From Alphaproteobacteria bacterium (lineage in GTDB: Bacteria; Pseudomonadota; Alphaproteobacteria; Bin95), in contig JAPORR010000036.1 of assembly GCA_026710105.1 (NCBI GenBank), forward strand, positions 1-39,418: a stretch of DNA of 39,418 nt. Direction: 5' to 3'. The notes below the pieces were generated by a model. That model was not told where the DNA came from and ran no database searches. It was given only the letters and a program-made list of their open reading frames with translations. Positions 1,634 through 37,800 of the stretch are shown in pieces; positions within the stretch are counted from its first letter, which is position 1; each line of letters begins with the position of its first letter. The position numbers and the translations under genes are program-made.

Positions 1634-5211
<3,578 letters not shown>

Positions 5212-5214
5212 GGA

Positions 5215-6339
5215 TCAGACGCGCATCGGCATCAACACGTAGAGCGCACTCGAGTCCACCATGTCGCGGACCAGGGTGGGCGCCGCCGGGTCGGCGAGCT
5301 CAAGCGCCACCGTGCCGCCTTCGATACGGCGCAGGATTTCGAGCAGATAGCGGGCGTTGAAGCCGATCTCCATCGGTGCCGTCCCGTCGAAGCGCACGTC
5401 GATCTCCTCCGTCGCCGTGCCGTGGGTCGGGTCGGCGGCGGTGAGCTGCAGGCTGGCAGTATCGACGGCGAGCTTGATCGCGCGGGTACGCTCGGAGGAG
5501 ATCGCCGTAACCCGGTCTACGGCTTCTGCCAAGACGCGGCTTTCGACTTCGAGCCGCTTGTCATTGCCCGTCGGGATTACCCGTTCATAGTCGGGATAGG
5601 TACCGTCAATGAGCTTGGAAGTAAGCTCCACGCTGCCGATGACGAAGCGAATTCCGGTCTCCGACAGCGCGACCGATACATCATCGTCTTCGCCTTCCAG
5701 CAGTTTGCGCAGCTCCTGTACCGCCTTGCGTGGCACGATTACGCCGCCCGGCATGTCCTCCGCGCCGGCAGGTCTTGGCACCTCGACGCGCGCTAGCCGG
5801 TGGCCATCCGTTGCCACCGCGCGCAGCACCGGCACGCCCTCATGCTCCGTGGTGTGCAGGTAGATGCCGTTCAGATAGTAGCGCGTCTCTTCGGTCGAGG
5901 CGGCGAAGCCGGTCCGGTCGATCAGCCCGCGTAGGTCGTCGGCAGCAAGCTGGAAGCGGCAGGCGAACTCGGCCTTGGAAAGCTGCGGGAACTCGTCTGG
6001 CGGCAGGGCGGAGAGCGTGAAGGTGGACCGCCCGCAGCGCAGCCTTATGCGGTCCGTACCATCCTCGGTCTCCAGCTCCACCTGCGCCCCATCGGGCAGT
6101 TTGCGGGTGATGTCGTAAAGCACTTGCGCCGACAGCGTGGTGCCGCCACCGGAAACTGCTTCGGCGTCCACTGTCTCGACGGCTCCGAGCTCCAGATCGG
6201 TCGCCGAGAGGCGCAGCCGCCCGTCTGCCGCTTCGAGCATGACATTTCCCAGGATCGGAATAGTGTTGGCCCGTTCAACCACGCTCTGCGCATGGCTGAG
6301 GGATTTCAGGAACTGGCTGCGTTCGATGGTGAGCTTCAT
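5215..6339 (-). CDS. dnaN: DNA polymerase III subunit beta (sliding clamp)
   Basis: Start trimmed to MKLTIERSQFLKSLSHAQSVVERANTIPILGNVMLEA; C-terminal ALYVLMPMRV. Confidence 0.96.
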   Translation of the reverse strand: MKLTIERSQFLKSLSHAQSVVERANTIPILGNVMLEAADGRLRLSATDLELGAVETVDAEAVSGGGTTLSAQVLYDITRKLPDGAQVELETEDGTDRIRLRCGRSTFTLSALPPDEFPQLSKAEFACRFQLAADDLRGLIDRTGFAASTEETRYYLNGIYLHTTEHEGVPVLRAVATDGHRLARVEVPRPAGAEDMPGGVIVPRKAVQELRKLLEGEDDDVSVALSETGIRFVIGSVELTSKLIDGTYPDYERVIPTGNDKRLEVESRVLAEAVDRVTAISSERTRAIKLAVDTASLQLTAADPTHGTATEEIDVRFDGTAPMEIGFNARYLLEILRRIEGGTVALELADPAAPTLVRDMVDSSALYVLMPMRV

Positions 6340-18051: not shown

Positions 18052-19041
18052 TTATTGCAGGGCCTTATCAGTGATTGCGTGCGTCCAGGCGCCTTCGGGA
18101 GCCATGGTGATTACCGGATCCGAGCCGCCTTTCAGCAGCGTCGCGACAGTGCGCTCGTAATCGGCGGGTGCCAGCGCGCCGCTGCTGCCCGCGGTCAGTT
18201 TCGCGACCTCACCCATCATGCGCTTCTGGTGCTTCTCGGTCTGAGCACCGGTCGCATCGTTGTCCAGCACGATTTCGGCGGCTACGTCTGGGTTCTCCTC
18301 GGCCCATTTCCAACCCTTCATCGATGCGCGCACGAAGCGGACCATCCGATCCTGGAAGGCGGTGTCTTCTAGTGCGGATTCGAGCACGTAGATGCCGTCT
18401 TCCAGCGTGGCGACGCCTTGGTCCTCATATTTGAAAACGACGAGGTCATCGGCCGAGAGACCTGCGTCGATAACCTGCCAGTATTCGTTATAGGTCATGG
18501 TCGAGATACAGGCGGCTTGCCCCTGCAGGATTGGATCGACATTGAAGCCCTGTTTCAGCACGGTCACGCCTTGGTCGCTGCCGTCGGTTGGAATGCCAAG
18601 CTGGCTCATCCAAGATAGAAACGGATATTCATTGCCGAAGAACCAGACGCCGATCGTCTTACCCCGGAAGTCCTCAGGCGTCTTGATACCGGTGTCCTTG
18701 CGGCAGGTGAGCATCATGCCAGAGCGCTTGAACGGCTGGGCGATATTTACCAGCGGCAGTCCCTTTTCGCGCGTGGCAAGCGCAGAAGGCATCCAGTCGA
18801 GGATGACGTCCGCGCCGCCGCCGGCCAGAACCTGGGGCGGTGCAATGTCCGGGCCGCCAGGCTTGATTTCAACTTCCAGGCCTTCGTCGGCATAGAACCC
18901 CCTGTCTGCGGCAACATAGTAACCGGCGAACTGCGCCTGTGTGACCCATTTGAGCTGGAGCGTGACCTTGTCGGCAGCGTCTGCGCCCCCGGCTGACAGG
19001 GCGAACATCGCCGCCGCTGTAAAGATAGTTGTTCTTCTCAT
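18052..19041 (-). CDS. ABC transporter substrate-binding protein (NMT1/THI5-like)
   Basis: Signal peptide MRRTTIFTAAAMFALSAGGADA; VTLQLKWVTQAQFAGYYVAADRGFYADEGLEVEIKPGGPDIAPPQVLAGGGADV. Confidence 0.92.
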   Translation of the reverse strand: MRRTTIFTAAAMFALSAGGADAADKVTLQLKWVTQAQFAGYYVAADRGFYADEGLEVEIKPGGPDIAPPQVLAGGGADVILDWMPSALATREKGLPLVNIAQPFKRSGMMLTCRKDTGIKTPEDFRGKTIGVWFFGNEYPFLSWMSQLGIPTDGSDQGVTVLKQGFNVDPILQGQAACISTMTYNEYWQVIDAGLSADDLVVFKYEDQGVATLEDGIYVLESALEDTAFQDRMVRFVRASMKGWKWAEENPDVAAEIVLDNDATGAQTEKHQKRMMGEVAKLTAGSSGALAPADYERTVATLLKGGSDPVITMAPEGAWTHAITDKALQ

Positions 19042-19068
19042 ATTGCTCTCCTTAGCGAAAAGTAGCGG

Positions 19069-19914
19069 CTAAAGTGATCCTCGGATCGAAGGATGCCAAT
19101 GGGTTACCGTTCTCTCGGTCAGCGTTACGCATCCATAGAAGGCCGATCCGGCCAGGGCTGCAACCGCTATCTCGGCCCAGACCATGTCAAGCGCCATTCG
19201 ACCGATCTCGGTGGAAATGCGGAAGCCCATGCCCACAATGGGGGTCCCGAAAAATTCTGCAACGATCGCGCCGATCAGCGCAAGCGTGGTGCAGATTTTC
19301 AACCCGTTGAAAATAAAGGGAGCGGCCGCAGGCAGGCGCAGTTTCCAGAGCGTCTGCCAGTAGCCGGCCGCATAGGTGCGCATCAGGTCCCGCTGTATGG
19401 CTTCAGCCATGCGCAGCCCCTCAATGGCATTCACCAACATCGGGAAGAAACACATTACGACAACCACGGCGGCCTTGGAGTGCCAGTCGAAACCGAACCA
19501 CATTACCATGATCGGCGCGATCCCGACGATCGGCAGGGCCGCTGCGAGATTCCCCATGGGCAACAAGCCCCTTTGCAGGAAGGGAGAACGGTCGATGGCG
19601 ATAGCCGTAAGCAATGCCAACCCGCACCCCATGGCATAGCCCGGCAAGACAGACCGGATCACGGTCTGCACGAAATCGGCCCACAGGACTGGCAGGTTTG
19701 AGGCGAAGGCGGCGGAGATCGCCGAGGGCGCCGGTAGGATGACCGCCGGCACCTCAAGCCCGCGAACCAGTCCTTCCCAGATCATCACCAGCGAAATGCC
19801 GAAGATTGCGGGCATCAGAAGACGCGTCAACCGCCCTGTCTGACGCGCCAGCAGAATGTTGACGGCCCATCCGCCGAGCCAGGCGGCGGTCGCGACCGTG
19901 ACCCAACTCATCAT
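19069..19914 (-). CDS. ABC transporter permease (SsuC/ThiX-like)
   Basis: Start trimmed to MMSWVTVATAAWLGGWAVNILLA (19911 or 19914); multiple TM; FPMLVNAIEGLRMAEAIQRDLMRTYAAGYWQTLWKLRLPAAAPFIFNGLKI EAA loop; overlaps upstream permease stop. Confidence 0.88.
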   Translation of the reverse strand: MMSWVTVATAAWLGGWAVNILLARQTGRLTRLLMPAIFGISLVMIWEGLVRGLEVPAVILPAPSAISAAFASNLPVLWADFVQTVIRSVLPGYAMGCGLALLTAIAIDRSPFLQRGLLPMGNLAAALPIVGIAPIMVMWFGFDWHSKAAVVVVMCFFPMLVNAIEGLRMAEAIQRDLMRTYAAGYWQTLWKLRLPAAAPFIFNGLKICTTLALIGAIVAEFFGTPIVGMGFRISTEIGRMALDMVWAEIAVAALAGSAFYGCVTLTERTVTHWHPSIRGSL

Positions 19915-20771
19915 GCTTGCCCCATTCGGCCTAGAACGGCGCGCTGCACCATCCCGACGGCGCCCACCATAAGTGCCGCGCATATAGCGGCACCGAAGAG
20001 CGCCGACCAGATAATCAACACTTGGCCGTAATAGCTGCCATTCAGCATCCGCGCCCCAAAACCACCCTGGCTGCCGGTGGGCAGTTCACCGATGATCGCG
20101 CCAACCAAGGCGATGGCAATGGCGACCTTGAGGGACGCGAAAAGATAGGGCAGCGAAGAGGGCCAGCGCAACTTCCAGAACACCTGCCAGGCAGACGCAT
20201 TATAGGTCCGCATCAGGTCCAGCTGCATGCCGCCCGGCGCGCGCAGCCCTTTGACCATGCCGACCACCACCGGAAAGAAGCTGAGATAAGCCGAGATGGC
20301 GGCCTTCGCGACCAAGCCCGATATCCCGATATTGTAAAGCACGACGATAATCATCGGCGCGATGGCAAGAATGGGGATCGTCTGGCTGGAGATAACCCAA
20401 GGCATGACGGATAAATCCATCGCCCGGTTGTGAACGATGCCGACTGCCAGCAGGATGCCCAGGCCAACCCCCATGGCGAAGCCCAGGAAGGTCGCGGACA
20501 GCGTGATCCAGCCATGATAGACGAGACTGCGCTTGGAGGTGATGCGCTTATTAGCGGTCGTCTCCCAGATCTCGGCTGCCACCTGATGGGGGGCGGGTAG
20601 GACGGGACGCTCCTGGGACATCGTGGCCGGGATGATATCCGCCCATCCGATCTCGACGCCTGCGCGCGCGGCCTGGTCACGCTCCCATTTGGCATTCAGG
20701 CCGACAGCACCGACATACCAGGCGGCCAAAATGGCAAGGCAGATTGCCGTAATCGAAAGGGCGATCCGCAT
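19911..20771 (-). CDS. ABC transporter permease (second SsuC/ThiX-like subunit)
   Basis: FFPVVVGMVKGLRAPGGMQLDLMRTYNASAWQVFWKLRWPSSLPYLFASLKVAIAIALVGAIIGE EAA loop. Confidence 0.9.
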   Translation of the reverse strand: MRIALSITAICLAILAAWYVGAVGLNAKWERDQAARAGVEIGWADIIPATMSQERPVLPAPHQVAAEIWETTANKRITSKRSLVYHGWITLSATFLGFAMGVGLGILLAVGIVHNRAMDLSVMPWVISSQTIPILAIAPMIIVVLYNIGISGLVAKAAISAYLSFFPVVVGMVKGLRAPGGMQLDLMRTYNASAWQVFWKLRWPSSLPYLFASLKVAIAIALVGAIIGELPTGSQGGFGARMLNGSYYGQVLIIWSALFGAAICAALMVGAVGMVQRAVLGRMGQA

Positions 20772-20810
20772 CAGGCTAGCCGCACCGCGACGCCTATACT
20801 AGGGGCTTGT

Positions 20811-21596
20811 TCAGTCATCATAGCTGTGTCCCGCGCGCAAGCCTTCGCGCACCCGCGTGGCTAGCTCCAGGAAAGCCGTGCTTTCGCGTATGTCGAGCGG
20901 GCGCTCCGCCGGCATAGGGCTTTCGATTATGTCGATAATTCGCCCCGGCCTCGGGCTCATCACGATAATCTTTGTCGAGAGGTAGACCGCCTCTGGAATC
21001 GAATGGGTAACAAAACAGATCGTCTTGCCGGTGCGAGCATGAAGAGCAAGCAATTGTTCGTTCAGATGGTCCCGGACGATTTCGTCGAGCGCACCGAAGG
21101 GCTCGTCCATCAACAACAGGTCCGCATCGAAAGCGAGCGCGCGTGCAATCGAAGCCCGTTGCTGCATGCCCCCCGAAAGTTGCCAGGGAAACATACGGCC
21201 GAAGTCGCCGAGGCCAACAAGGTCGAGGACACGCCGGACCCGCTCCGCCCGCTCATGCGCAGGATAGCCCATGACCTCCAGAGGTAGGCGTACGTTCTTC
21301 TCGATAGTGCGCCAAGGATACAGTCCGGCCGCTTGGAATACATAGCCATAGGTACGGTTTAACCGCGCTTCCCGCGGTGTCATTCCGTTGACGGAGATAG
21401 TGCCACCTGTCGGCTGCTGAAGATCGGCGATCACGCGCAACAGTGTCGTCTTCCCGCAACCCGAAGGCCCGATGAAGCTGACGAACTCGCCCGGCGCCAC
21501 CTGAAGATCGATCTGCGACAGCGCGTGAACAGGCCCATCCCTGGTCTCGAAGACCAAGTCGAGCGAAGATGAGACGATCGCGCCCGCGCGATTCAT
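20811..21596 (-). CDS. ABC transporter ATP-binding protein (SsuB/TauB-like)
   Basis: SFIGPSGCGKTTLLRVIADLQQPTGG Walker A; LSGGMQQRASIARALAFDADLLLMDEPFGALDE signature and Walker B. Confidence 0.95.
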   Translation of the reverse strand: MNRAGAIVSSSLDLVFETRDGPVHALSQIDLQVAPGEFVSFIGPSGCGKTTLLRVIADLQQPTGGTISVNGMTPREARLNRTYGYVFQAAGLYPWRTIEKNVRLPLEVMGYPAHERAERVRRVLDLVGLGDFGRMFPWQLSGGMQQRASIARALAFDADLLLMDEPFGALDEIVRDHLNEQLLALHARTGKTICFVTHSIPEAVYLSTKIIVMSPRPGRIIDIIESPMPAERPLDIRESTAFLELATRVREGLRAGHSYDD

Positions 21597-21657
21597 CGAA
21601 AACCGCCGTTCCAGATGCCGCGAAACGCACGCATGGGCGCTCTGGCGTCGGGCGTGC

Positions 21658-23118
21658 TCAAACTCCGCTCGGGATGTTGAGTGGATCGCGCTGGACTTTG
21701 CGCGGTGCAGTCAGTGCTTTCCAGCGGGCAAGGGCCTCATGGACGGCAGGGAACGCCCGCCGCCGCACGAATCGCCCGCGCCCGGGACGAGGTTGCGAGT
21801 TCTTGCCGTATTCCCAGATCACTTCGCCACGACTCAAGGTATAGCGCGCCTGGGCCGAGACTTCGATACCCTCGAAGACATTGTAGTCGATGATCGACTT
21901 CTGGGCGGTGGCGGAGATCGTCTTCTTGATCTTCGGGTCCCAGACCACGACATCGGCGTCTGCCCCTTCGACAAGCGCCCCCTTCTTCGGATAGAGGTTC
22001 AATATCTTGGCAATGTTGGTGGACGTGACTGCCACGAACTCGTTGGGGGTGAGCCGCCCGGTTTCGACACCCTTGGTCCAGAGCACTGGCAATCTGTCCT
22101 CAAGGCCTCCTGTCCCATTGGGGATCATTGGGAAGCCAGCCAGCCCCATGCGTTTCTGGTCCGTTGTGAAGGCGGCATGGTCGGTGGCCACCACCTGCAG
22201 GGACCCTGCTGCTAGCCCGTTCCAGAGTCCATCTTGATGCGCCTTGCCGCGGAAAGGGGGCGACATGACACGCTGCGCGGCATAGTTCCAGTCCTGGTCG
22301 AAATACTCCGACTCATCGAGCGTGAGATGCTGGATCAGAGGTTCGCCATAGACCCGCATGCCCTTCTGGCGCGCACGCCGGATAGCCTCATGCGCCTGTT
22401 CGCAGGAAACATGCACGATGTAGAGCGGCACACCCGCCGCATCGGCGATCATGATCGCGCGGTTTGCGGCCTCACCTTCCACCTCCGGCGGGCGCGAATA
22501 GGCATGCCCCTCGGGCCCGGTAAGGCCCTCCTCCATGTATTTCTCCTGGAGCGCCGCCACGATGTCGCCGTTTTCCGCATGAACCAGCGGCATCGCCCCA
22601 AGCGCAGCGCAACGACGGAAGGAAGCGAACATCTCGTCGTCCTCGATCATCAGCGCACCCTTGTAGGCCATGAAGTGCTTGAAGGTGTTGATGCCACGCT
22701 TCACGACCTCAGCCATCTCGTCGTGAATCTGCTCATTCCAGTCCACAATCGCGCAGTGATAGCCGATATCGACGCAAATCTGGTCCTTGGATTTGGCGTC
22801 CCAGGCATCGACGGCGCTAAGCAGCGAGCCGTCCTCGCCGGGCAACACGAAATCGACCAGCATGGTCGTTCCGCCGGTCGCCGCCGCCCAGGTGCCGGAT
22901 TCGAAGGTCTCAGCGGCGGTCGTGCCCATGAACGGCATTTCCAGATGCGTGTGCGGATCGATGCCGCCGGGGATGACATACGCCTCCGATGCGTCGACGA
23001 CCTCATCGCCGACCAGGTTCTCGCCGATGGCGGCGATCTTCTCGCCCTCGACCAGAACATCGGCTTTCCAGGTCCGATCGGCTGTAAGGATGGTGCCGCC
23101 CTTGATGACTTTGCTCAT
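21658..23118 (-). CDS. hydA: Dihydropyrimidinase / D-hydantoinase
   Basis: MSKVIKGGTILTADRTWKADVLVEGEKIAAIGENL; GGIDPHTHLEMPFMGT; NTFKHFMAYKGALMIEDDEMF carboxylated Lys region; VATDHAAFTTDQKRMGL. Confidence 0.93.
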   Translation of the reverse strand: MSKVIKGGTILTADRTWKADVLVEGEKIAAIGENLVGDEVVDASEAYVIPGGIDPHTHLEMPFMGTTAAETFESGTWAAATGGTTMLVDFVLPGEDGSLLSAVDAWDAKSKDQICVDIGYHCAIVDWNEQIHDEMAEVVKRGINTFKHFMAYKGALMIEDDEMFASFRRCAALGAMPLVHAENGDIVAALQEKYMEEGLTGPEGHAYSRPPEVEGEAANRAIMIADAAGVPLYIVHVSCEQAHEAIRRARQKGMRVYGEPLIQHLTLDESEYFDQDWNYAAQRVMSPPFRGKAHQDGLWNGLAAGSLQVVATDHAAFTTDQKRMGLAGFPMIPNGTGGLEDRLPVLWTKGVETGRLTPNEFVAVTSTNIAKILNLYPKKGALVEGADADVVVWDPKIKKTISATAQKSIIDYNVFEGIEVSAQARYTLSRGEVIWEYGKNSQPRPGRGRFVRRRAFPAVHEALARWKALTAPRKVQRDPLNIPSGV

Positions 23119-23185
23119 TAGAGGCCTCCACTAGATCTCGTTTCCCGAGCGACACACCGCTGGGACTTGCCTGCAGGCGCCCGCC

Positions 23186-24436
23186 TCAGTCCAGAAGTTC
23201 CGCAGTTTCCACCACGGCATGAAACAGCACGTCGCAGCCTCGGGCGGCCCATTCCGGCGTGATCTCCTCGGCTTCGTTGTGGCTCAACCCGTCGACGCAG
23301 GGACACATCACCATCGCCGCCGGCGCAACTTCATTGATCCAGCAGGCGTCGTGGCCAGCACCCGAGACGATATCCATATGGGAATAGCCGAGCCGCTCAG
23401 CCGCGGCGCGGACAGTCGTGACACAGCCATTGTGGAATTCGGGTGGGTCGAAGCTGCCAACGATCTCGGTCTCGATCTCGCAGCCCAGGGCTTCGCAGAT
23501 CGCAGGCGCCTTCTCCGTGACCTCGGTTACCATAGCCTCCAGCGTTTTCAGGACATGACTGCGAAAGTCGATGGTGCAGACGACCCGGCCGGGAATGATG
23601 TTACGGGAGTTCGGATAGACGTTGATATGCCCGATGGCGCCGACAGCATTGGGCTGATGTTTCATCGCCGTCTCGTGGACCAGTTCAGTGATCTGAGCCA
23701 GTCCACGCCCGGCATTGCGGCGCATCCGCATAGGCGTGGAGCCGGTGTGGCTCTCCTTGCCGGTGATCCGGCATTCGACCCAGCGCAGTCCCTGGCCGTG
23801 AGTAACGACGCCGACATCGCAGGCCTCGGCCTCCAGGATCGGGCCCTGTTCGATATGCAATTCGAAATAGGCGTGCATTTTGCGCGCCCCGACCTCTTCC
23901 TCGCCGCGCCAGCCTATGCGCTCGAGTTCATCTTCGAAGCGCTTGCCTTCGGCATCTGTCAAGCCGTAAGCCCAGTCTTCCTTATGGACGCCGGCGAAGA
24001 CGCCCGAAGCCAGCATGGGCGGTGCATAGCGGGTCCCTTCCTCATTGGTCCAGTTGACGACTGCGATCGGGTGCTTTGTCCTGATGTCCAGGTCGTTGAG
24101 GGTCCGCACAATCTCGAGCCCACCGAGCACGCCCAGCACGCCATCATATTTGCCGCCGGTTGGTTGCGTATCGAGGTGGCTGCCGACAAAGACCGGCAAT
24201 GCGTCCGGATCGGTCCCGGCTCGTGTCGCGAACATGTTGCCCATCCGGTCCAACCCCATCTCGCAGCCTGCCGCTTCGCACCACTGCTGAAACAACGCAC
24301 GGCCTTCGGCGTCCTCGTCCGTCAGGGTCTGGCGATTGTTGCCGCCGGCCACACCGGGACCAATCTTCGCCATTTCCATCAGGCTGTCCCAGAGCCGCTT
24401 GCCGTCAATCTTGAGGTTCTCTCCGGGTGCGGGCAT
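23186..24436 (-). CDS. Zn-dependent hydantoinase/carbamoylase family amidase (beta-ureidopropionase / N-carbamoyl amino acid hydrolase type)
   Basis: Start trimmed to MPAPGENLKIDGKRLWDSLMEMAKIGPGVAGGNNRQTLTDEDAEGR; VGSHLDTQPTGGKYDGVLGVLGGLE; NWTNEEGTRYAPPMLASGVFAG; SGAGHDACWINEVAPAAMVMCPCVDGLSHNEAE. Confidence 0.93.
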   Translation of the reverse strand: MPAPGENLKIDGKRLWDSLMEMAKIGPGVAGGNNRQTLTDEDAEGRALFQQWCEAAGCEMGLDRMGNMFATRAGTDPDALPVFVGSHLDTQPTGGKYDGVLGVLGGLEIVRTLNDLDIRTKHPIAVVNWTNEEGTRYAPPMLASGVFAGVHKEDWAYGLTDAEGKRFEDELERIGWRGEEEVGARKMHAYFELHIEQGPILEAEACDVGVVTHGQGLRWVECRITGKESHTGSTPMRMRRNAGRGLAQITELVHETAMKHQPNAVGAIGHINVYPNSRNIIPGRVVCTIDFRSHVLKTLEAMVTEVTEKAPAICEALGCEIETEIVGSFDPPEFHNGCVTTVRAAAERLGYSHMDIVSGAGHDACWINEVAPAAMVMCPCVDGLSHNEAEEITPEWAARGCDVLFHAVVETAELLD

Positions 24437-27746: not shown

Positions 27747-28859
27747 TTACGCGCCCGTCGCGTCATTGGCGAGCAGGGCGTCGATGCGGACGGAGGCGAG
27801 TCCCGTCATGCGGACGGAGGCGACAATGGCGTTCCAGGCGTCATCGGAAAGCGGCAGGCCGTTTGCGCGGCGTTCAGAGGCGGTCATCCGCTCCGGGTCG
27901 CCGGGCACCAGCACCGGTTTGTCTGGATCCGCAGGCTCTGCCGAGAGCAGCCACGCGATATAGTCTTCCACGGCTCGCGCAAAGGCCTCGCCTGGGCCAA
28001 AGGCGTCCGGTGCGGCGTAAAGCGAGAACATGCCGTTGGCAAAAGGCTTGTCCGTCGGTCCGCAGACGCCGTTGCCGGTAAGGGCACCGCCCAGCAATTC
28101 GCACATCAAGGCGAGGCCTGAGCCTTTGTGCTGACCCATCGCGCGGATGGCCCCCTTGCCGTTGCGGCATTGCGGCGGCGCATCGGGGCCGGCTGAACCG
28201 TAGAGTGCCGCGGGATCGTTCGTGTACCGGCCCTCGCCGTCGATCAGTGCCTCTTCCGGTACCGGCTTGCCGCCCTTCGCCGCGACCAGCACCTTGCCTT
28301 CCGCCACCACCGAGGTAGCGAAGTCCAGCACCAGCGGGTCATGGCCCTCGCGCGGCACGGCCACGCAGAAGGGCGCGGTGGAAAAGCGACGTTCGCGAGC
28401 ACCGTGAGGGGCGACAAGTATGCTGCCGCGCGCATTGACAAAATGGACCGAGACCAGCCCTTCAGCGGCCGCCATGGCGGCCCATTCACCGATGCGCCCG
28501 AGATGGCCGGTATTGCGCAGTGCCACCACGCCGACGCCGCCCATGCGCGCCTTGTCAACACCGCAACGGACGGCCTGTGGGCCGATGGTCTGGCCGAAAC
28601 CGAGCTTGCCGTCGAGCACCGCCATGGCCCCCATATCCGACACAATCTCGACTTTTTGGTCGGCTACGACGCGGCCGTCGCTCAGCATCTCCAGATAGCG
28701 CGGTACGCGCACGATACCGTGACTGTCATGGCCGGCGAGATTGGCGGACACCAGCGAGACGGCGATGCGCGCGCCCTCGGCAACAGAACAGCCCGCCGCT
28801 GTGAAGGCTTCGCCGACCAGAGACTCAGCTGTATTGACCAGTATGCGGCGCACCAGCAC
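27747..28859 (-). CDS. Ldh family oxidoreductase (malate/L-lactate/ureidoglycolate dehydrogenase type)
   Basis: ANLAGHDSHGIVRVPRYLEML; GVVALRNTGHLGRIGEWAAMAA; GQHKGSGLALMCELLGGALTGNG. Confidence 0.92.
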   Translation of the reverse strand: MLVRRILVNTAESLVGEAFTAAGCSVAEGARIAVSLVSANLAGHDSHGIVRVPRYLEMLSDGRVVADQKVEIVSDMGAMAVLDGKLGFGQTIGPQAVRCGVDKARMGGVGVVALRNTGHLGRIGEWAAMAAAEGLVSVHFVNARGSILVAPHGARERRFSTAPFCVAVPREGHDPLVLDFATSVVAEGKVLVAAKGGKPVPEEALIDGEGRYTNDPAALYGSAGPDAPPQCRNGKGAIRAMGQHKGSGLALMCELLGGALTGNGVCGPTDKPFANGMFSLYAAPDAFGPGEAFARAVEDYIAWLLSAEPADPDKPVLVPGDPERMTASERRANGLPLSDDAWNAIVASVRMTGLASVRIDALLANDATGA

Positions 28860-28878
28860 CTCCTCAGAGTTTCAAGCT

Positions 28879-29158
28879 CATTGAGCCTTGCAAAACCGTT
28901 CGAACGACCGTGATTTCCGCTGATATGAGCTGATTTTGGGGTAGAAGCGGGGTCGGGTTTCGGAGTCGCTCTGTGGTATCTTGGGTTTGCGAGCCACAAG
29001 CGACCAAGGAGACAACCCCGATGACCCTGGGCGCGAAGCTATCCAATTTCTGGCATCGGTTTCAAGGGGAGCTGTTCCCGTCGCTGGCGGAGGAGGTGGG
29101 TCCCCTGCTCGGGACGCACCGCCGTTTTGTAGCAGCGCTGCACAACGCTCTCAGTGGG
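28879..29158 (+). mobile_element. Truncated IS5-like insertion sequence remnant (5' end and transposase N-terminus)
   Basis: ORF at 29021 encodes MTLGAKLSNFWHRFQGELFPSLAEEVGPLLGTHRRFVAAL, resembling the N-terminus of IS5-type transposases, then ends in unrelated HNALSGSLSKQ; boundaries approximate. Confidence 0.5.
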
Positions 29159-30481
29159 TCACTCTCCAAGCAATAAGCCAGAAGCATGCCCTAGCGGTCC
29201 GAGCCGACGCACCCTGAGCGCCAGAATGGCGGCCTCCGCGCCATAGCCGGCCATCCAGGCGGTAAGGCCGATGACGGCGCCGTTACCGCCAGGCAGGAAC
29301 AATCCGGCTGCCGCAACGAGCGCAGCGGCAGCAATGCGGGAGAGGCCCGATACGGCGAGCGTGCTCGTGTCTCTTGCGCCCGCCAGAAGGCCACGAAAGA
29401 CCGCGGACAGGCCCCAGAAGGAGGCCATGAGAAACGCGATCTGCATAGCAGGCGCGCAATAGGCTTCCAGAGCGGGTTCTAAGCCCATCGCACCGGAGAG
29501 CACTGGCCGGTCGAGCGGTGTATGGAACAGCAGGGCGGCGACAGCCCCAAAGAACAGTATCAGATGCGAGGCGAAGCGTAACAACACCGGGCGATCCTCC
29601 GCCCGGCGCACCAGCGTTTGCGCGCTTTGCACGAGGTTGCGTAGCGGGCTCAGCAAGAGGCTCGACAAGCCGTACACCACCGCGAAAGCGGCAAGCGCGA
29701 GGTCCGGGTCCGGCAGGCGGCCGAGAAACACGCTGATGACGAAGACCATGCCCATCTCGGCGGAGGAGTTCAGCATGAGCGGCCAGGAAAAGCGCCATTG
29801 CGCCCAGAAGGTTGGTGGCGTTTCGCCTTCTTCGGGCAGGCCGATATAGAAGCGCCGGGCGAAACCGGCTGCGACTACCGTTTCGCAGAACATGGCGAAA
29901 ACCAGCGCGCCAGCGCCGACCGCAGCGCCCTCCAGCACGAGCGGCAGCACGGCGAGCGAGCCGGCGAGTGATGCCAGCCGCGCCAGCGTTGCCCAAGTGA
30001 TAAAGATGGTCTTCTTGGCGATCATCAGGAGGCCAAAGCAGATCGACCGGCAGACCAGGATTGGCGCGCTGAGCGACAGGAGGAAGGTCACCGTCTTGGC
30101 CTCGGCGACTGCGGCGTCGCTGATGCCGAACAATATGCCGAACGCAAGGTTCCCCAGAGGTGTAAAGGCCAGTAATTGCGCCACCGCCCAGGGTGCGGCG
30201 ACGATGATGGCCATAAAGCGCAGCAGGCGGCTGAGCGCGCGGCGGGTGCGCATATAGGAAAGTGTCAGGAGCAAACAGACTTCGGTACCGCTGGCGATGC
30301 AATAGTAGAGCGTGAAGGCGCTATGAAAGGCCGCAAGCACGATGCTGCTATCGTCCATTCGCGCCAGGAATGCGTTGATGACCGATTTCGAGATCATGTT
30401 GAGTTCGGTCATGAAAATGAGAGGGATGAAAAACCGGTAGCAGGTCCCCAGATTGATGTCGTCTTCGCTTGCGCCGCTCAT
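29159..30481 (-). CDS. Polytopic MOP-superfamily membrane transporter (MATE/ANK-like)
   Basis: 440 aa, about 12 predicted TM; RSICFGLLMIAKKTIFITWATLARLASLAGSLAVLPLVLEGAAVGAGALVFAMFCETVVAA; two-fold repeat with WRFSWPLMLNSSAEMGMVFVISVFLGR. Confidence 0.65.
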   Translation of the reverse strand: MSGASEDDINLGTCYRFFIPLIFMTELNMISKSVINAFLARMDDSSIVLAAFHSAFTLYYCIASGTEVCLLLTLSYMRTRRALSRLLRFMAIIVAAPWAVAQLLAFTPLGNLAFGILFGISDAAVAEAKTVTFLLSLSAPILVCRSICFGLLMIAKKTIFITWATLARLASLAGSLAVLPLVLEGAAVGAGALVFAMFCETVVAAGFARRFYIGLPEEGETPPTFWAQWRFSWPLMLNSSAEMGMVFVISVFLGRLPDPDLALAAFAVVYGLSSLLLSPLRNLVQSAQTLVRRAEDRPVLLRFASHLILFFGAVAALLFHTPLDRPVLSGAMGLEPALEAYCAPAMQIAFLMASFWGLSAVFRGLLAGARDTSTLAVSGLSRIAAAALVAAAGLFLPGGNGAVIGLTAWMAGYGAEAAILALRVRRLGPLGHASGLLLGE

Positions 30482-30544
30482 ACGGCCATTAGACAGCGGA
30501 GATTCGGGCTTGCAAACTCCGACCCCCTGCGCCTCTGGATCGCG

Positions 30545-31909
30545 TCACCAGCCGACGGCATTGAGCGCCACGCCGAGTGCCGAACCGAGCGCTGCCACGG
30601 CCCCAGCGCACGCCAGCACCGGCCATGTGAGAAGCCGTCGGGCGAACCGCGCGACGAGGCGAGTCCAAGCCCCGTCAACGGGCGGATTGGCGAATATGGC
30701 GAATGCAGCGAAAGAAGGGAGAGCTGCCAGGATGAAGCCGATCCCGTAGGAGCCCGTCCAGGCGAGCAGCGCGCCGTAAAGCGCAGGGTAGATCATCATG
30801 GCGATGGAGGTGAAGGCCAGCACCCCGCCGGTCACGCCGCCGACCTGCCCCTCGGGGGCAAGGCGCGCGGTTTCCGCGAGCAGGACGCCGTGCCAACTCA
30901 GCGCCGTCATGTTGAAGACGACGGCGACAGCGGTGATGTCCCAGAAGGTCCATCCGGGGCCGTAAAGCGCAATCGCTACTGCCGAAAACCCGGCCACCAG
31001 CCCGATACCGGCCATGATGAGGCGTGGTGGCACAGCACCGCCGCCGAGAGCGCCCCACAGAATGCGCGCCCAGACCGCAGAGAAGGACGCGATGGCAAAG
31101 GCGGAGCCGGCCTCGGCTTCCGAGTAGTCCAGCCCATCGATCAGGAACAGGATGAAGAAGCCGGAAAACAGCGACTGCAGGCCGCCGAAAGCAAAGGCGG
31201 CGAAGGACAGGTCGCGCAGCGGGCGTATGGCGAGCACTGTCCTAAGCGTTGCGGAGAGGTCCCCGAAAGCGATCCTGGTATCGGGCCGGCGGTCGGCGTC
31301 GAAGTAAGCGCGCACCGGCTCCAGCGAGATCATCACGGCGAAGACGATCAGGCCAGTGACGAGGGCGGCACCATATGGCCCGAGCCGAACCGGCATGCCG
31401 AGCGTCTCGGAATAGAAGGTCAGACCCAACAGGAAGGGCACCAGCAGACCCCCGATGAGGGCACCAACCGGCACGCCCGTCTGCTTGATCGAAAAAACCA
31501 GCGGCGCGAGGCGCAGCGGCGTCACCCGCGCCAGAATATGCGAGCTGGCGGGCGTCGAGACGGAGGCCGCACCCAGCAGCACCGCGCCCAGCGGGAACAG
31601 CCAGAGCTGCGCTGAGGCCGTTACCAGCAGACTCGCCCCCATGAGCAGGAGGGCGAACTGGCTTACCCGTAAGGGACCATAGCGCAGGATAAAGCCGCCA
31701 CAGCCGACCGCTGCCAAGATGGCGGCAACATTCTGGAGAAAGAGATAGAAGCCGAGCCATGCTCGCGAGATGCCGAAATCTTCGGCGATCCGGTCAGCAA
31801 GGATCGGCAGCGCGATCTGGCAGACATAGGAGAAGGCCTGCTGGACCAGCATAGCGGCTGTCGCCGCTGCCATGATCGTGCGTGGGCTGAAACGCGCGAG
31901 ATCCATCAC
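30545..31909 (-). CDS. MFS transporter (12-TM, CynX/NarK-like)
   Basis: 454 aa, about 12 TM; SRAWLGFYLFLQNVAAILAAVGCGGFILRYGPLRVSQFALL; ASSHILARVTPLRLAPLVFSIKQTGVPVGALIGG; start GTG 31909 or ATG 31906. Confidence 0.88.
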   Translation of the reverse strand: MMDLARFSPRTIMAAATAAMLVQQAFSYVCQIALPILADRIAEDFGISRAWLGFYLFLQNVAAILAAVGCGGFILRYGPLRVSQFALLLMGASLLVTASAQLWLFPLGAVLLGAASVSTPASSHILARVTPLRLAPLVFSIKQTGVPVGALIGGLLVPFLLGLTFYSETLGMPVRLGPYGAALVTGLIVFAVMISLEPVRAYFDADRRPDTRIAFGDLSATLRTVLAIRPLRDLSFAAFAFGGLQSLFSGFFILFLIDGLDYSEAEAGSAFAIASFSAVWARILWGALGGGAVPPRLIMAGIGLVAGFSAVAIALYGPGWTFWDITAVAVVFNMTALSWHGVLLAETARLAPEGQVGGVTGGVLAFTSIAMMIYPALYGALLAWTGSYGIGFILAALPSFAAFAIFANPPVDGAWTRLVARFARRLLTWPVLACAGAVAALGSALGVALNAVGW

Positions 31910-32970
31910 CGTATGCGGATGTTGACCGCCGCGCGCATTCCTGGCCAGACGGTCGCCTCCACTGGCGGCATGTCGATGAACACCGGGATCCTACGCGCGC
32001 CATCGCCGTTCTGCTCGCTTCCACCCACAGTGGTGTGCCCGACCGCTCTAACGCGTCCCTCCAGCGTCTCGTCCGGCCAGGCTTCGAAATCGACGGTGAC
32101 CATCTGACCCGGCCGGATATGACGTATGTCGGCCTCATCGATATCGGCCTCAATCCAGACCCGGTCGGGGTCGTGGATCAGGAATACCGGGGTACCCTCT
32201 TCTACATAAGCGCCCGGATTGACATGTATCTCATTGATCACGGCGCGGCCCGGCGCGCGGATATGCATCTCCTCCAATCGGCGGTGCGCCTGTTCAACTT
32301 CGATCGCGGTCTTGTCGATATCCCGGTCGATGACCGCAAGCCGGGTTCGGAACAGCTGTTCCCGCCAAGCCGTGTCAGTAAGTTCTTCGGCTCTCCCCAG
32401 ATTGATGGCGATGCGGGTCTGGACATCGCGTAGCCTACTTTCCACTTCCAGCAATACGCCACGAGCCTCGTCGATCCGACCTTGCGGCACGACATTGCGG
32501 CCGGGCCGCCTGTTTCGCTCAAGATTGTCCTCTGCGATCTGCTTGCGGCGTTCCAGCGTCGCGAGTTCCAGGCGCAGCAAGCGGACGGTTACCTCTACGG
32601 TCGCGATCTTGCCAGCCAGTTCGGACTTGAAGAGTGCCAGCTCCGCTTCCACCTGGCCGCGCTGCGCCTTCTGTTTCTCCAGCCCAGCCTGGAGTGCGCG
32701 GAGGTTGAGGGCAGCGACGGTATCGTCCATGTCGGCAAGTGCCGCTCCCTTTTCGACGATATCCCCCTTCCGAACCCGGATCGCGGCGATGCGGGCATTG
32801 ACTCTCGAAGAGAGCAGAGCCAAATCCGCGGCGACCCGCGCATTTGGCTCATAGACATTGTGCCACCAGTGGATTGCCTCATTGACACCCGCGGCGACCA
32901 GCGTCACCGGCAGCACCAACAACAGATAAACATAGCGGTTGCGTCGCTTCCTGAGGGGGGATTCGGCCAT
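31906..32970 (-). CDS. HlyD family secretion / membrane fusion protein
   Basis: N-terminal TM YVYLLLVLPVTLVAAGVNEAIHWW; SSRVNARIAAIRVRKGDIVEKGAALADMDD; coiled coil; APGRAVINEIHVNPGAYVEEGTPVFLIHDPDRVWIEADIDEADIRHIRPGQMVTVDFEAWP. Confidence 0.9.
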   Translation of the reverse strand: MAESPLRKRRNRYVYLLLVLPVTLVAAGVNEAIHWWHNVYEPNARVAADLALLSSRVNARIAAIRVRKGDIVEKGAALADMDDTVAALNLRALQAGLEKQKAQRGQVEAELALFKSELAGKIATVEVTVRLLRLELATLERRKQIAEDNLERNRRPGRNVVPQGRIDEARGVLLEVESRLRDVQTRIAINLGRAEELTDTAWREQLFRTRLAVIDRDIDKTAIEVEQAHRRLEEMHIRAPGRAVINEIHVNPGAYVEEGTPVFLIHDPDRVWIEADIDEADIRHIRPGQMVTVDFEAWPDETLEGRVRAVGHTTVGGSEQNGDGARRIPVFIDMPPVEATVWPGMRAAVNIRIR

Positions 32971-33063
32971 CGGGGACGATTTATTCTATGCTGGACGAGT
33001 ATCGCACTGTGGAACCCTAGCACGGGCGGCGCGCGAAGCGAGGGCGGCGTGGAAGCAACAGGG

Positions 33064-33918
33064 ATGAACGACAGCGACTGGCGCCGTGCGCCCTGGCCCG
33101 GCGGGGCACGGATTGCCCTCTCCCTGGTGGTGAATGTCGAGGAAGGCGCGGAAGCTCGCATCGATGACGGCGACCCTTGGCCCGAGCCCGTGGACGAGCT
33201 CAGTGCCAGCCCGAGGCGGGCGATCCGCAATTACGGTAATGAAAGCAACTACGCTTACGGCATCAAGGCAGGCGCACCGAGGGTCATGCGACTGCTGGAG
33301 GAGCGCAGGCTGAAGGCGACCTTTACCGCTGCCGCGGTGGCGCTGGAACGCGCCTCGACGCTAGCGACGCAGATTGTGGCGGGCGGCCATGAGGTCTGCG
33401 CGCACGGGCACCGCTGGATTCATCAGTTCCGTATGGATGAGGCGCAAGAGAGAGCCTTCATCCAAGACGCCGCCGCGTCGATAGAGCGGACGACCGGCAC
33501 GCGGCCAATCGGCTGGCTCTCGCGCTATCTGTTGACCCCCAACACGAGGCGGCTGCTGATCGAAGAAGGTTTTACCTACCATATGGACGACTATTCCGAC
33601 GACCTCCCATTCCGGCATGAGGAACCGGGCGGGCGGATTGCGGTCGTGCCCTATGCGATCGACACTAATGACATGAAGATGTGGACTGATCCCGCCTATA
33701 CGCCAGCGCACTGGCTCGACTATGCGCGCGAGAGTTTCGACAGGCTTTACAAGGAAGGCATGGAAGGCGCGCCGAAAATGATGAGTCTTGGCCTGCATTT
33801 GCGGATCATCGGGCGTCCCGGGCGGATCGGCTACTTCGAACGCTTCCTCGACCATATCCAGGCGCATGAAGGCGTCTGGGTGGCGCTGAGGCGCGACATC
33901 GCGGACTGCCTGCCGTGA
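33064..33918 (+). CDS. Polysaccharide deacetylase family protein (PuuE-type allantoinase-like)
   Basis: IALSLVVNVEEGAEARIDDGDPWPE; VAGGHEVCAHGHRWIHQFRMDEAQERAFI; GWLSRYLLTPNTRRLL; MSLGLHLRIIGRPGRIGYFERFLDHI. Confidence 0.88.
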   Translation: MNDSDWRRAPWPGGARIALSLVVNVEEGAEARIDDGDPWPEPVDELSASPRRAIRNYGNESNYAYGIKAGAPRVMRLLEERRLKATFTAAAVALERASTLATQIVAGGHEVCAHGHRWIHQFRMDEAQERAFIQDAAASIERTTGTRPIGWLSRYLLTPNTRRLLIEEGFTYHMDDYSDDLPFRHEEPGGRIAVVPYAIDTNDMKMWTDPAYTPAHWLDYARESFDRLYKEGMEGAPKMMSLGLHLRIIGRPGRIGYFERFLDHIQAHEGVWVALRRDIADCLP

Positions 33919-35267
33919 GCGGCCTTTTCAGCCGGCTCAATGTAGAGGCTATTCTCCGGGACTACCCGATGGGCGTGGCCTTTCTCGAAGGGCCTGCAGC
34001 GCTCTCCCGCGATGCACTGCGGGCGCTCCAGGAGTACCGTTTCGCCCGCGTCATGGCGCGGGCCTGGCAGATACCATTCTACCAGGAGCGCTGGGGCGCT
34101 GCAGGCCTGGAGCCAGGCGATATTTCCAGCCTTGACGACCTGGCGTTGATCCCGCCCATCTCCAAGGACGATCTGATGGCGAGTGTGGCCGGGGCTCCAC
34201 CTTTCGGGAACTTCCACGGGCGCGATGCTGCACATCCCTTCGCCGTGTTCCACACGACCTCCGGTACGACCGGCATGCCGCAACCCTTATTCTACGGAGC
34301 CGAAGACCGGGAAATCCAGAATCTGCTTCTGGCTCGTGCCTACCGGCTGATGGGGCTTGAGGACGACGATATCATTCATTCCGTCTATGGCTTCGGCACG
34401 GTCAATGGCGGCCATTATGTCCGCGAGGCCGTGACACACTTCACCGACGCCTTGTTGGTGCCAGCCGGGACCGGGCGCGACATGCCGTCCGAGCAACAGG
34501 TCGAGGCGATGGCACGGTTCGGCGTGACGGTGCTGGTCGGCTTCGTCGACTATGTGCGCCGCCTTGCTGAGATCGCTGGCAAGAAAGGCCTGAAGATCCC
34601 GCTCCGCCTAGTACTCGGTCATTTTGGCAGCGGTGACCGGCAGGCGGTCTCAGACGCCTGGGGCGGCGCCGCGGTTTATGACTGGTACGGGGTCGGCGAT
34701 ACTGGTGTCATCGCTGCCGAAAGCCCGAGCCGGAGCGGGCTGCATGTTTTCGAGGATGCGCATGTTGTGGAAGCGCTCGACCCGGAAACAGGCACCCCGG
34801 TCGAGGACGGCGATGCTGGCAATCTCTGTGCGACCGTTCTCTTCAAGACCGGCATCTACCCGATCGTCCGCTTCGACACCAAGGACCTGACGACGTTATC
34901 GCCGCCGGACCCCGGTTCCGGCATTAATTTTCGCCGCATGTCGGGGTTCGAAGGCCGATCGGACAATATGGTCAAACTGCGCGGCATCAATGTCTATCCG
35001 ACGGCAATCGGCACCTTTCTCGACGAGTTCGAAGCGCTTACAGGCGAATATGTCTGTCGGGTCTTCACGGACAAAGGTCGCGAGGACATGGCGGTCATCG
35101 CGGAAGCGCGCGAGCGGAGCGCACGGCTGGCGGAGAACCTAGCCGAACGGCTGAAGCGAGGGCTCGGCGTCCAGGTCATGGTCGAACTCGTCGCGCCCGG
35201 CGGAACGGCCGCACTCACGCAAATCAACGAACGACAGAAACCGGTCAGGCTCGTCGATGAACGCTGA
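33915..35267 (+). CDS. Phenylacetate-CoA ligase-like (PaaK-type) adenylate-forming enzyme
   Basis: GTG start overlapping upstream stop; VFHTTSGTTGMPQPLFYGAED; YDWYGVGDTGVIAAES; RFDTKDLTTL; GRSDNMVKLRGINVYPTAIG. Confidence 0.88.
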   Translation: MSGLFSRLNVEAILRDYPMGVAFLEGPAALSRDALRALQEYRFARVMARAWQIPFYQERWGAAGLEPGDISSLDDLALIPPISKDDLMASVAGAPPFGNFHGRDAAHPFAVFHTTSGTTGMPQPLFYGAEDREIQNLLLARAYRLMGLEDDDIIHSVYGFGTVNGGHYVREAVTHFTDALLVPAGTGRDMPSEQQVEAMARFGVTVLVGFVDYVRRLAEIAGKKGLKIPLRLVLGHFGSGDRQAVSDAWGGAAVYDWYGVGDTGVIAAESPSRSGLHVFEDAHVVEALDPETGTPVEDGDAGNLCATVLFKTGIYPIVRFDTKDLTTLSPPDPGSGINFRRMSGFEGRSDNMVKLRGINVYPTAIGTFLDEFEALTGEYVCRVFTDKGREDMAVIAEARERSARLAENLAERLKRGLGVQVMVELVAPGGTAALTQINERQKPVRLVDER

Positions 35268-35275
35268 GTGTTTTA

Positions 35276-36565
35276 GTGCGAAGCCGAACTTCCAGCTTGC
35301 CTCCTGACCCGCCTCCAACACCGCCCGACGAAGCCAGCCGCAGCATGTATCGCGGCTGGTGGGTGGCAGCGGGCGGGTTTGTCATGGCGTTCTACGCTTG
35401 GGGCGTGGGGTTTTACGGTCATGGCTTCTATATGATCGTTCTGGGCCGTGTGACCGGCTGGCCAGTTTCCATGGTGTCGAGTCTCGTCGCGGGGTTTTGG
35501 CTGACAAATGTGGCCGCCAGCCTCGTATTGGGTCGGGTCACTGACCGGTTCGGCGCGCGCCCGGTGGTGGTTTACGGCGCGCTTGCAATGGCGGCAGGAT
35601 GCGTTGCGCTGGCTGCCTTAGAGGCCGGGTTCGGCGGGGCGCGATGGCAGTTTTTCGCAGTCTTTGCGCTCATGGGCAGCGCTTATCCCGGTCTGGCGAC
35701 CATGGCGATCAGCGCCGCGCTAGTGCCGTGGTTCAAGCGCCGCCTTGGCCTCGCTCTCGGCATTGCGTTGACCGGGGCTAGCGCCGGCGGGGCGGTGATG
35801 CCGCCCCTGATGGCATGGCTCTCCATCCGGTACGGGTTTGGGTCCGCTATGACAGGGATCGGGGCTGCCCTCATCCTCTCCGTGCTGCCGGTCGCGCTCT
35901 TCATCGTCCGGACTCCTGGACACCAAGAAGCCGCGAGAGAGCTGGGCGCGGCCTCGCCCACCGGGGTGAGGGACAAGCCGCGACCGGCCCAGTTCCTGCG
36001 CGAGTCCCGGTTCTGGTTCATTGTATCGGCCTGTAGCCTGTCACTCGGCGCACAGGTCGGTTTCCTGATGCACCAGATACCGCTTCTGCAGGGTGCTCTG
36101 GGGCTTTCTGGGGCGGCCTTCGCTGTCAGCGTCGCTGCATTGAGCGCGGCGGCGGGCCGGTTCGCGCTCGGCGCCTTGAGCAAACGGTTTTCACTGCCGG
36201 TCATGGCCGCTGGCTGCTATCTGATCCAGGCATTCGGGCTGCTACTCCTGCTGGCCGAGGGGCCGCCCGCCTTGCTGTTTGCCGCTTCCGCCATAGCCGG
36301 TTTCGTCATCGGTTGCATCGTGATGCTGCCGCCGCTGCTACTGGTGGACAGCTTCGGCCAGCATGGTTACGGCACCGCATATGGCGTCACAGCGGCGAGC
36401 ATGTTCGTCATGGCGGGTCTTGCGACCGTGGCCAGCGGCTGGCTCTTCGATGCGACTGGTGCTTATGCCTGGCCACTGCTAGGTCTCACCGGACTGCATG
36501 CGCTGGCCGCCGTCCTGGTCCTGTGGCACGGTCGCCGGCAACAAAGCCGCGAGGCCGTGCAATGA
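35276..36565 (+). CDS. MFS transporter (monocarboxylate/OxlT-like)
   Basis: YRGWWVAAGGFVMAFYAWGVGFYGHGFYMIVLGRVTGW; LGRVTDRFGARPVVVYGALAMAAGCVAL; WFKRRLGLALGIALTGASAGGAVMPPLMAWL; start may be ATG 35345. Confidence 0.9.
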   Translation: MRSRTSSLPPDPPPTPPDEASRSMYRGWWVAAGGFVMAFYAWGVGFYGHGFYMIVLGRVTGWPVSMVSSLVAGFWLTNVAASLVLGRVTDRFGARPVVVYGALAMAAGCVALAALEAGFGGARWQFFAVFALMGSAYPGLATMAISAALVPWFKRRLGLALGIALTGASAGGAVMPPLMAWLSIRYGFGSAMTGIGAALILSVLPVALFIVRTPGHQEAARELGAASPTGVRDKPRPAQFLRESRFWFIVSACSLSLGAQVGFLMHQIPLLQGALGLSGAAFAVSVAALSAAAGRFALGALSKRFSLPVMAAGCYLIQAFGLLLLLAEGPPALLFAASAIAGFVIGCIVMLPPLLLVDSFGQHGYGTAYGVTAASMFVMAGLATVASGWLFDATGAYAWPLLGLTGLHALAAVLVLWHGRRQQSREAVQ

Positions 36566-37800
36566 CACCAGAGATGTCTCTGTCCGCGCTCTGCGAGGGC
36601 TATGCCGCCGGCAAGCTCGACCCCGTGGCCGTTGTGGAGGCTTGTCTGGACCGGATCGAACGGGAGAACCCTCGTCTCAATGCCTATGTTGCGGTGACGG
36701 CGGAGATCGCGCGCCAGGCTGCGGCGGCCTCTGCGGCGCGCTGGCGGGCAGGCCGCCCGGCCTCTGCCCTCGACGGCGCGCCTATCGCGGTCAAGGACAA
36801 TATCGATATGGCCGGCGCCGTCACCGCGAATGGTTTGCCGGGAGGCAAGGTCGCCGGGACAGATGCGCCCGTCATTGCGCGACTCCGGCAAGCGGGCGCA
36901 GTGCTGCTCGGCAAGACCAATCTGCATGAAGCGGCCTTCGGCACCACCACCTTCAATCCCCATTGGGGTATGACCCACAATCCGTACCGCGAGGGTTGGA
37001 CGGCAGGCGGGTCGAGCGGCGGTTCCGGCGCCGCCGTGGCGGGCGGACTCGCCGCTGCCGCGCTCGGCACCGATACCATGGGCTCCGTGCGCCTGCCGGC
37101 GGCCTATTGCGGTTGTTTCGGCCTGAAACCAACACAGGGCGCGGTGCCGCTGGAAGGCGTCACGCCGCTTGCGCCGAGCCTTGATCATGTCGGGCCGCTT
37201 ACGCGGTCGGCTGAGGATATATTGACACTGTTTGAGGTCATGGCGGGACGTCCGGCGGAGCCTGAGGGGAGCTGGCACCCCGTGCGGTTGGCCGCGTTCG
37301 ATCATGTGGTGCTCGAGCCGGATGTAGCCGAAGCCATGCCTGCACTCGACCTGCCAGTGCTGGACTGGCCGGATTACGACCCCTCGACGGCGCGCCGGGC
37401 CGGACTGTTGGTGATCGAGGCGGAAGCCTTTGCGGCGCTCGGCATGCCGGAGGGGGCCTCGAACGAATTACGCGGCTACTTGGACTATGGCGCTTCGCTC
37501 GCCCCGAAACGGCTCGCCGCCGCGCGCGAGGTCATCCGGCGCATCCGGGAAGACGCAGCCGCGCGCATCGGCGATGCCGTTATCATCGCGCCGGTTGCAC
37601 CCTGCGGCCCCTTCCCGCGTTCGCGTAAAGTGCCAGCCGGCCAGGCCGAATTGCTGGCCTTTGCCAATCTCACTAGCCTGCCTGCGCTTGCCTTTCCCTG
37701 CGGCCGCATGGCGAACGGCATGCCCTTCGGCCTACAGGCGATTGCGGGCCCGGGCCGGGAGGCAGCGCTTATCGCGGCGGGCCGGGCGTTCGGCAAATAA
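36562..37800 (+). CDS. Amidase (amidase signature family)
   Basis: Start trimmed to MTPEMSLSALCEGYAAGKLDPVAVVEACLDRIERENPRLNAYV, ATGA overlap with MFS; IAVKDNIDMAG; TAGGSSGGSGAAVAGGLAAAALGTDTMGSVRLPAAYCGCFGLKPTQG. Confidence 0.92.
   Translation: MTPEMSLSALCEGYAAGKLDPVAVVEACLDRIERENPRLNAYVAVTAEIARQAAAASAARWRAGRPASALDGAPIAVKDNIDMAGAVTANGLPGGKVAGTDAPVIARLRQAGAVLLGKTNLHEAAFGTTTFNPHWGMTHNPYREGWTAGGSSGGSGAAVAGGLAAAALGTDTMGSVRLPAAYCGCFGLKPTQGAVPLEGVTPLAPSLDHVGPLTRSAEDILTLFEVMAGRPAEPEGSWHPVRLAAFDHVVLEPDVAEAMPALDLPVLDWPDYDPSTARRAGLLVIEAEAFAALGMPEGASNELRGYLDYGASLAPKRLAAAREVIRRIREDAAARIGDAVIIAPVAPCGPFPRSRKVPAGQAELLAFANLTSLPALAFPCGRMANGMPFGLQAIAGPGREAALIAAGRAFGK

Follow-up and report, generated by a model that had tools for sequence, protein, structure and literature searches.

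The question raised by this locus was whether three neighbouring transporter genes on the minus strand of a 39,418-bp alphaproteobacterial contig (JAPORR010000036.1; the whole stretch is called the window here) encode the components of one exporter. The initial annotation proposed a cassette of a HlyD-type membrane fusion protein, a 12-TM MFS carrier and a MATE/ANK-like protein acting as a third component. The three minus-strand ORFs were found where they had been placed (Table 1), and the overlap reported between the first two was verified: the ATG of the MFS gene at 31906 shares one base with the stop codon of the HlyD gene (TGATG). The MATE gene is separated from the MFS gene by 63 bp, without any overlap. 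We consider it quite probable that the run represents two independent things, namely the hlyD-mfs pump pair and a separate MATE gene, which were brought next to each other most likely by deletion of a hydrolase/racemase gene pair.

Table 1. Features of the three-gene run and their positions in the window
Feature	Position	Strand	Remark
MATE-fold (MOP superfamily) transporter, 440 aa, uncharacterised family, possibly ANKH-like	29159..30481	-	
MFS-MATE junction, 63 bp	30482..30544	.	about 1976 bp and two opposite-strand genes in six sister species
Promoter-like footprint TTTGCA, 17 nt, TCTAAT	30488..30516	-	six bases before the MATE ATG
Probable remnant of the lost alpha/beta hydrolase C-terminus (LDRVTSRRH-stop)	30535..30564	+	sisters LDRVTSxxR-stop
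MFS carrier, 453 aa, 12-helix core and C-terminal helix	30545..31906	-	start overlaps HlyD stop
13th C-terminal MFS helix, residues 428-450	30557..30625	-	model pLDDT about 75-79
HlyD/EmrA-type periplasmic adaptor, 354 aa	31906..32970	-	N-terminal membrane anchor, split lipoyl domain, alpha-hairpin, beta-barrel
Hairpin-tip site, degenerate TolC-docking RLS motif (RNRRP-GRNVVP)	32485..32517	-	compared with the motif of the orthologues

The MFS-MATE junction was compared with the gene order of the sister species. In six sisters from the same genus, PaaK-PuuE (minus) is followed by HlyD-MFS (plus), after which come an alpha/beta hydrolase gene and one of the mandelate-racemase/enolase family (opposite strand) and finally MATE (plus); in one of these species the pair does not lie on a single contig, and the presence of the two intervening genes was deduced from the matching ~2-kb spacing. 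From the MFS stop to the MATE ATG, 1976-1977 bp were counted in the five sisters measured versus 63 bp in the window, giving a net difference of 1913-1914 bp (~1.91 kb). A three-gene operon was rejected on the basis of this comparative order, in which MFS and MATE are kept apart by two genes of the opposite strand. Orthologues of the hydrolase and the mandelate-racemase genes were absent from the window genome, where the best matches showed 29% and 33%. A probable trace of the former is retained, however, in the hydrolase frame after the MFS stop, where the LDRV codons differ from those of the sisters at third positions only; this stretch is partly constrained by the overlapping end of the MFS gene. 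The presence of this C-terminal remnant makes deletion of the two intervening genes in the window lineage the likelier cause. The MATE gene adjoins the pair in the window species only, probably through the loss of these two genes. The opposite course, in which MFS and MATE were ancestral neighbours and an insertion brought the hydrolase/racemase pair into the sisters, would also leave MATE as a separate unit. Among the sampled members of the genus the window branches basally, so parsimony alone leaves the direction of the two-gene change unset, and in other genera neither the hydrolase nor the racemase gene adjoins the pair. Nevertheless, the hydrolase C-terminal codons kept in the window argue against insertion, which we regard as unlikely. 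Beyond MATE, NfeD and SPFH-family genes follow in the sisters (L024 8423-9935) and a lactate/malate dehydrogenase-family gene in the window; no match to the NfeD/SPFH DNA of the sisters was obtained among the 40 of 195 candidates scored in the window genome.

The association of the first two genes is of another kind. The MFS gene directly follows HlyD in 20/20 genomes from two alphaproteobacterial groups, 13 of this family (the window included) and seven others, and in nearly all of them the two ORFs overlap or lie within about 20 nt, the exception being a gap of 213 nt in G308. As judged from this arrangement, hlyD-mfs is a putative translationally coupled two-gene unit. The carrier matched PF07690 (E 1.4e-18) and no NCBIfam model, and its conserved start (MDL...) corresponds to the ATG at 31906. 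Profile search of the PDB with the MFS core returned matches to MCT10 only, while the fold matches extended to many MFS carriers, including MCT1, MCT2 and OxlT; in its predicted fold, the core is monocarboxylate/oxalate-porter-like and not EmrB-like. Consequently, the proposal that this HlyD-type adaptor is accompanied by something other than a 14-TM EmrB was borne out, and the 12-TM description fits the core but misses a 13th helix at the C-terminus.

This helix appears to be linked to the presence of the adaptor gene. About 40 additional C-terminal residues with a hydrophobic helix were found in all 15 HlyD-paired carriers examined, whereas the closest unpaired MFS homologues (G198, 65% and G286, 60% identical) stop short of it. 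In the phylogenetic tree the paired carriers formed one clade (support 0.955) with the two unpaired homologues as its sister, which maps HlyD pairing and helix 13 to the same branch; being a single event, it renders the link between them suggestive only. In the EmrAB-TolC structure, the N-terminal helix of the adaptor contacts helix TMB of EmrB (PMC13139468), and the function of CprB requires a C-terminal helix (PMC11002906). By analogy, the C-terminal helix of the carrier described here could serve like EmrB TMB or the CprB helix, and it is plausible that it is the contact for the membrane anchor of the adaptor, replacing the two extra helices of EmrB. The existence of close homologues without HlyD indicates that the MFS core can work alone, and the neighbouring genes are catabolic, both of which would suit an HlyD protein that partners another, distant transporter and an MFS carrier that acts by itself as importer or exporter. 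The invariable adjacency in the 20 genomes, nearly always with an overlap or a short gap, and the appearance of the C-terminal helix on the branch of HlyD pairing make such a division improbable.

The adaptor matched PF16576 (E 1.9e-22). Its hit to TIGR00998 (EmrA/EmrK; E 1e-29) reached 103.6 bits and did not pass the family cut-off of 390.8 bits, so it stands far below the EmrA family level. The R-x3-L-x6-S/T (RLS/RLT) motif, whose binding to TolC was established by mutation in HlyD, MacA and AcrA (PMC3391258), was present at the hairpin tip of 13/13 adaptor orthologues from other genera. In the window, as in five sister species (L022-L025, L031), this site is one residue shorter and proline replaces serine. 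By sequence comparison, the genus of the window has lost a motif that every one of those 13 orthologues retains. The adaptor of this genus may use another channel or dock more weakly, and the loss weakens the TolC step assumed for the window species. As the initial annotation stated, there is no TolC-type gene in the contig and no obvious regulator linked to the HlyD-MFS pair; two TolC-type channels (PF02321) were detected in the window genome, both on other contigs. E. coli EmrAB likewise relies on an unlinked tolC, so the lack of a linked TolC gene is nothing unusual. Elsewhere in the genome, another HlyD gene (29% identical) precedes an MFS gene in a 528-aa frame (G000:C74:3879-6186), possibly a canonical EmrAB pair.

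Among known systems, EmrAB-TolC of E. coli, VceABC, FarAB-MtrE and CprABC share with the pair an adaptor of the EmrA/HlyD type that is anchored in the membrane by its N-terminus, and in EmrAB-TolC and its relatives the adaptor gene also stands directly before the MFS carrier gene. The TolC-docking motif is carried by the orthologous adaptors outside the window's genus. EmrB belongs to the DHA2 carriers and has 14 TM helices and a periplasmic helix bundle (PMC8277102, PMC13139468), while the carrier described here combines a 12-helix monocarboxylate/oxalate-porter-like core with one C-terminal helix. MCT1, MCT10, OxlT and SfMCT are alike in the core; however, they possess only 12 TM helices and lack an HlyD adaptor, in contrast to the 13th helix and the coupled adaptor gene found here. 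For an HlyD adaptor combined with a 12-TM MFS carrier, the part of the open literature covered, which was incomplete, contained only EmrAB-like systems and unspecified MFS-HlyD clusters. The HlyD-MFS pair is most likely a two-gene variant of the EmrAB-like pumps with an unlinked TolC-type channel. A more far-reaching reading, which we put forward tentatively and with some doubt, is that of a distinct MFS tripartite pump, in which a carrier resembling monocarboxylate porters joined an EmrA-like adaptor via the gain of a C-terminal helix 13 that docks the adaptor's membrane anchor and takes the place of the two additional EmrB helices.

The third protein had been called MOP-type, and its AlphaFold2 model (pLDDT 87, pTM 0.85) indeed adopted the MATE/MOP fold. 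Foldseek gave the best E-value with 5yck (3.6e-09) and the best TM-scores with 5y50 (0.75/0.74); the fold is thus shared with MATE, MurJ and WzxE at best TM-scores of about 0.75, while the identity to the solved MATE/MOP structures listed was 11-17%. The window protein had no match of its own in Pfam and NCBIfam, no curated bacterial MATE family matched it, and a profile search with its family against PDB sequences gave nothing significant. Weak similarity to ANKH (PF07260) was seen in 7/17 aligned family members (best E 2e-4), though not in the window protein; the matches were weak or under the Pfam threshold, and the two members for which bit scores were given fell below the 22-bit cut-off. 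The MATE/ANK label is nevertheless a fair one, considering the fold together with these ANKH matches.

Upstream of the MATE ATG, GGAGTTTGCAAGC and CTGTCTAATGGCCG are identical in the window and the six sister species, with variable bases between them. A scan of 28800-33200 with the sigma-70 consensus called no site; the strict rule applied demands A at position 2 of the second hexamer, where the MATE footprint has TCTAAT. Since the scan made no call, TTTGCA-17-TCTAAT is to be regarded as a footprint and not as a proven promoter. The footprint suggests that MATE may have a transcript separate from the pair, which would possibly be leaderless. The short gap would allow read-through from MFS to MATE in the window genome, which counts against separate units.

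The distribution of the MATE gene was compared with that of the pair in the 18 genomes that carry a MATE orthologue, the window's included. In none of the 17 others (0/17) did a contiguous HlyD-MFS-MATE order recur, with MATE directly after MFS, so the contiguous same-strand trio, on which the role of MATE as third component had been based, was seen in the window genome only. For the contiguous trio, this is the lack of recurrence that the initial annotation itself had named as refuting its proposal. In G008 the MATE gene is arranged head-to-head with HlyD; in eight alphaproteobacterial genomes (G009 and seven further ones) it lies on another contig than the pair; four relatives (G010-G013) have the pair and lack MATE; and a SAR324 and a gammaproteobacterial MAG (G309, G310) carry MATE without an orthologous adaptor. 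On the other hand, every alphaproteobacterial MATE carrier checked also has the HlyD-MFS pair. Among 289 class-level genomes, 5 contained a MATE orthologue and 6 a HlyD orthologue; both were found together in 5, all belonging to two families. Accordingly, co-occurrence of the trio holds for gene content within two alphaproteobacterial families and fails for gene order, and it can be explained by shared descent. The head-to-head position in G008 and the spacing of only about 2 kb between MFS and MATE in the sisters point to some neighbourhood association within the family.

That the unique order might be an assembly artefact, that is, a metagenome contig misjoined between MFS and MATE, is suggested by the fragmentation of the assembly into 246 contigs. 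However, the flanks are continuous and separately recognisable on both sides of the junction, and both intervening genes are missing anywhere in a genome of 100% reported completeness, thus we hold a misjoin to be very unlikely. Least credible of all is a real three-component exporter, in which three co-transcribed genes would supply an adaptor serving both MFS and MATE, or a MATE protein feeding the HlyD-MFS pump, because the contiguous same-strand order with its 63-bp gap, the nearness of MATE to the pair in g1 and G008 and their constant co-occurrence in alphaproteobacterial MATE carriers are outweighed by the restriction of this order to one genome, the opposite-strand genes in six sisters, the relatives in which MATE is absent, unlinked or without an orthologous adaptor, its own conserved promoter-like block and a co-occurrence for which shared ancestry can account. 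What stood of the unusual exporter combination was consequently the pairing of HlyD with a non-EmrB MFS carrier, not a three-component type.

Regarding the substrate, export direction, channel use and adaptor-carrier contact of the HlyD-MFS pump, we infer the following scheme. The MFS carrier would move a small substrate, of organic-acid type or similarly amphipathic, out of the cytoplasm in exchange for protons, the adaptor would oligomerise on the carrier, and it would pass the substrate on to a TolC-type channel encoded at an unlinked site, as in EmrAB-TolC. The gene of the MATE-fold transporter would stand apart, with a conserved promoter-like sequence to itself, and probably became the next downstream gene when the opposite-strand hydrolase/racemase pair was deleted.

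The surroundings of the run contain further recognisable clusters. At 33103-37800, a divergent catabolic-looking cluster comprises genes for a PuuE-like deacetylase, a PaaK-like CoA ligase, a lactate/oxalate-type MFS carrier and an amidase, and its first part is conserved beside HlyD-MFS in the sister species. As read from the translations, the 18052-24433 region is a probable dihydropyrimidine/hydantoin utilisation cluster (a substrate-binding protein, two permeases, an ATPase, dihydropyrimidinase-like and carbamoylase-like proteins), and 1634-6339 holds a gyrB-recF-dnaN run, which suggests that the window lies near the replication origin.

These results remove a tempting but wrong three-component exporter from consideration and illustrate that an apparent operon can arise from one gene-loss event. 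The HlyD-MFS pair is useful in its own right as a conserved adaptor combined with a non-EmrB carrier. The paired carriers with helix 13 and their close unpaired relatives without it offer a natural comparison for the recruitment of periplasmic adaptors by MFS carriers.
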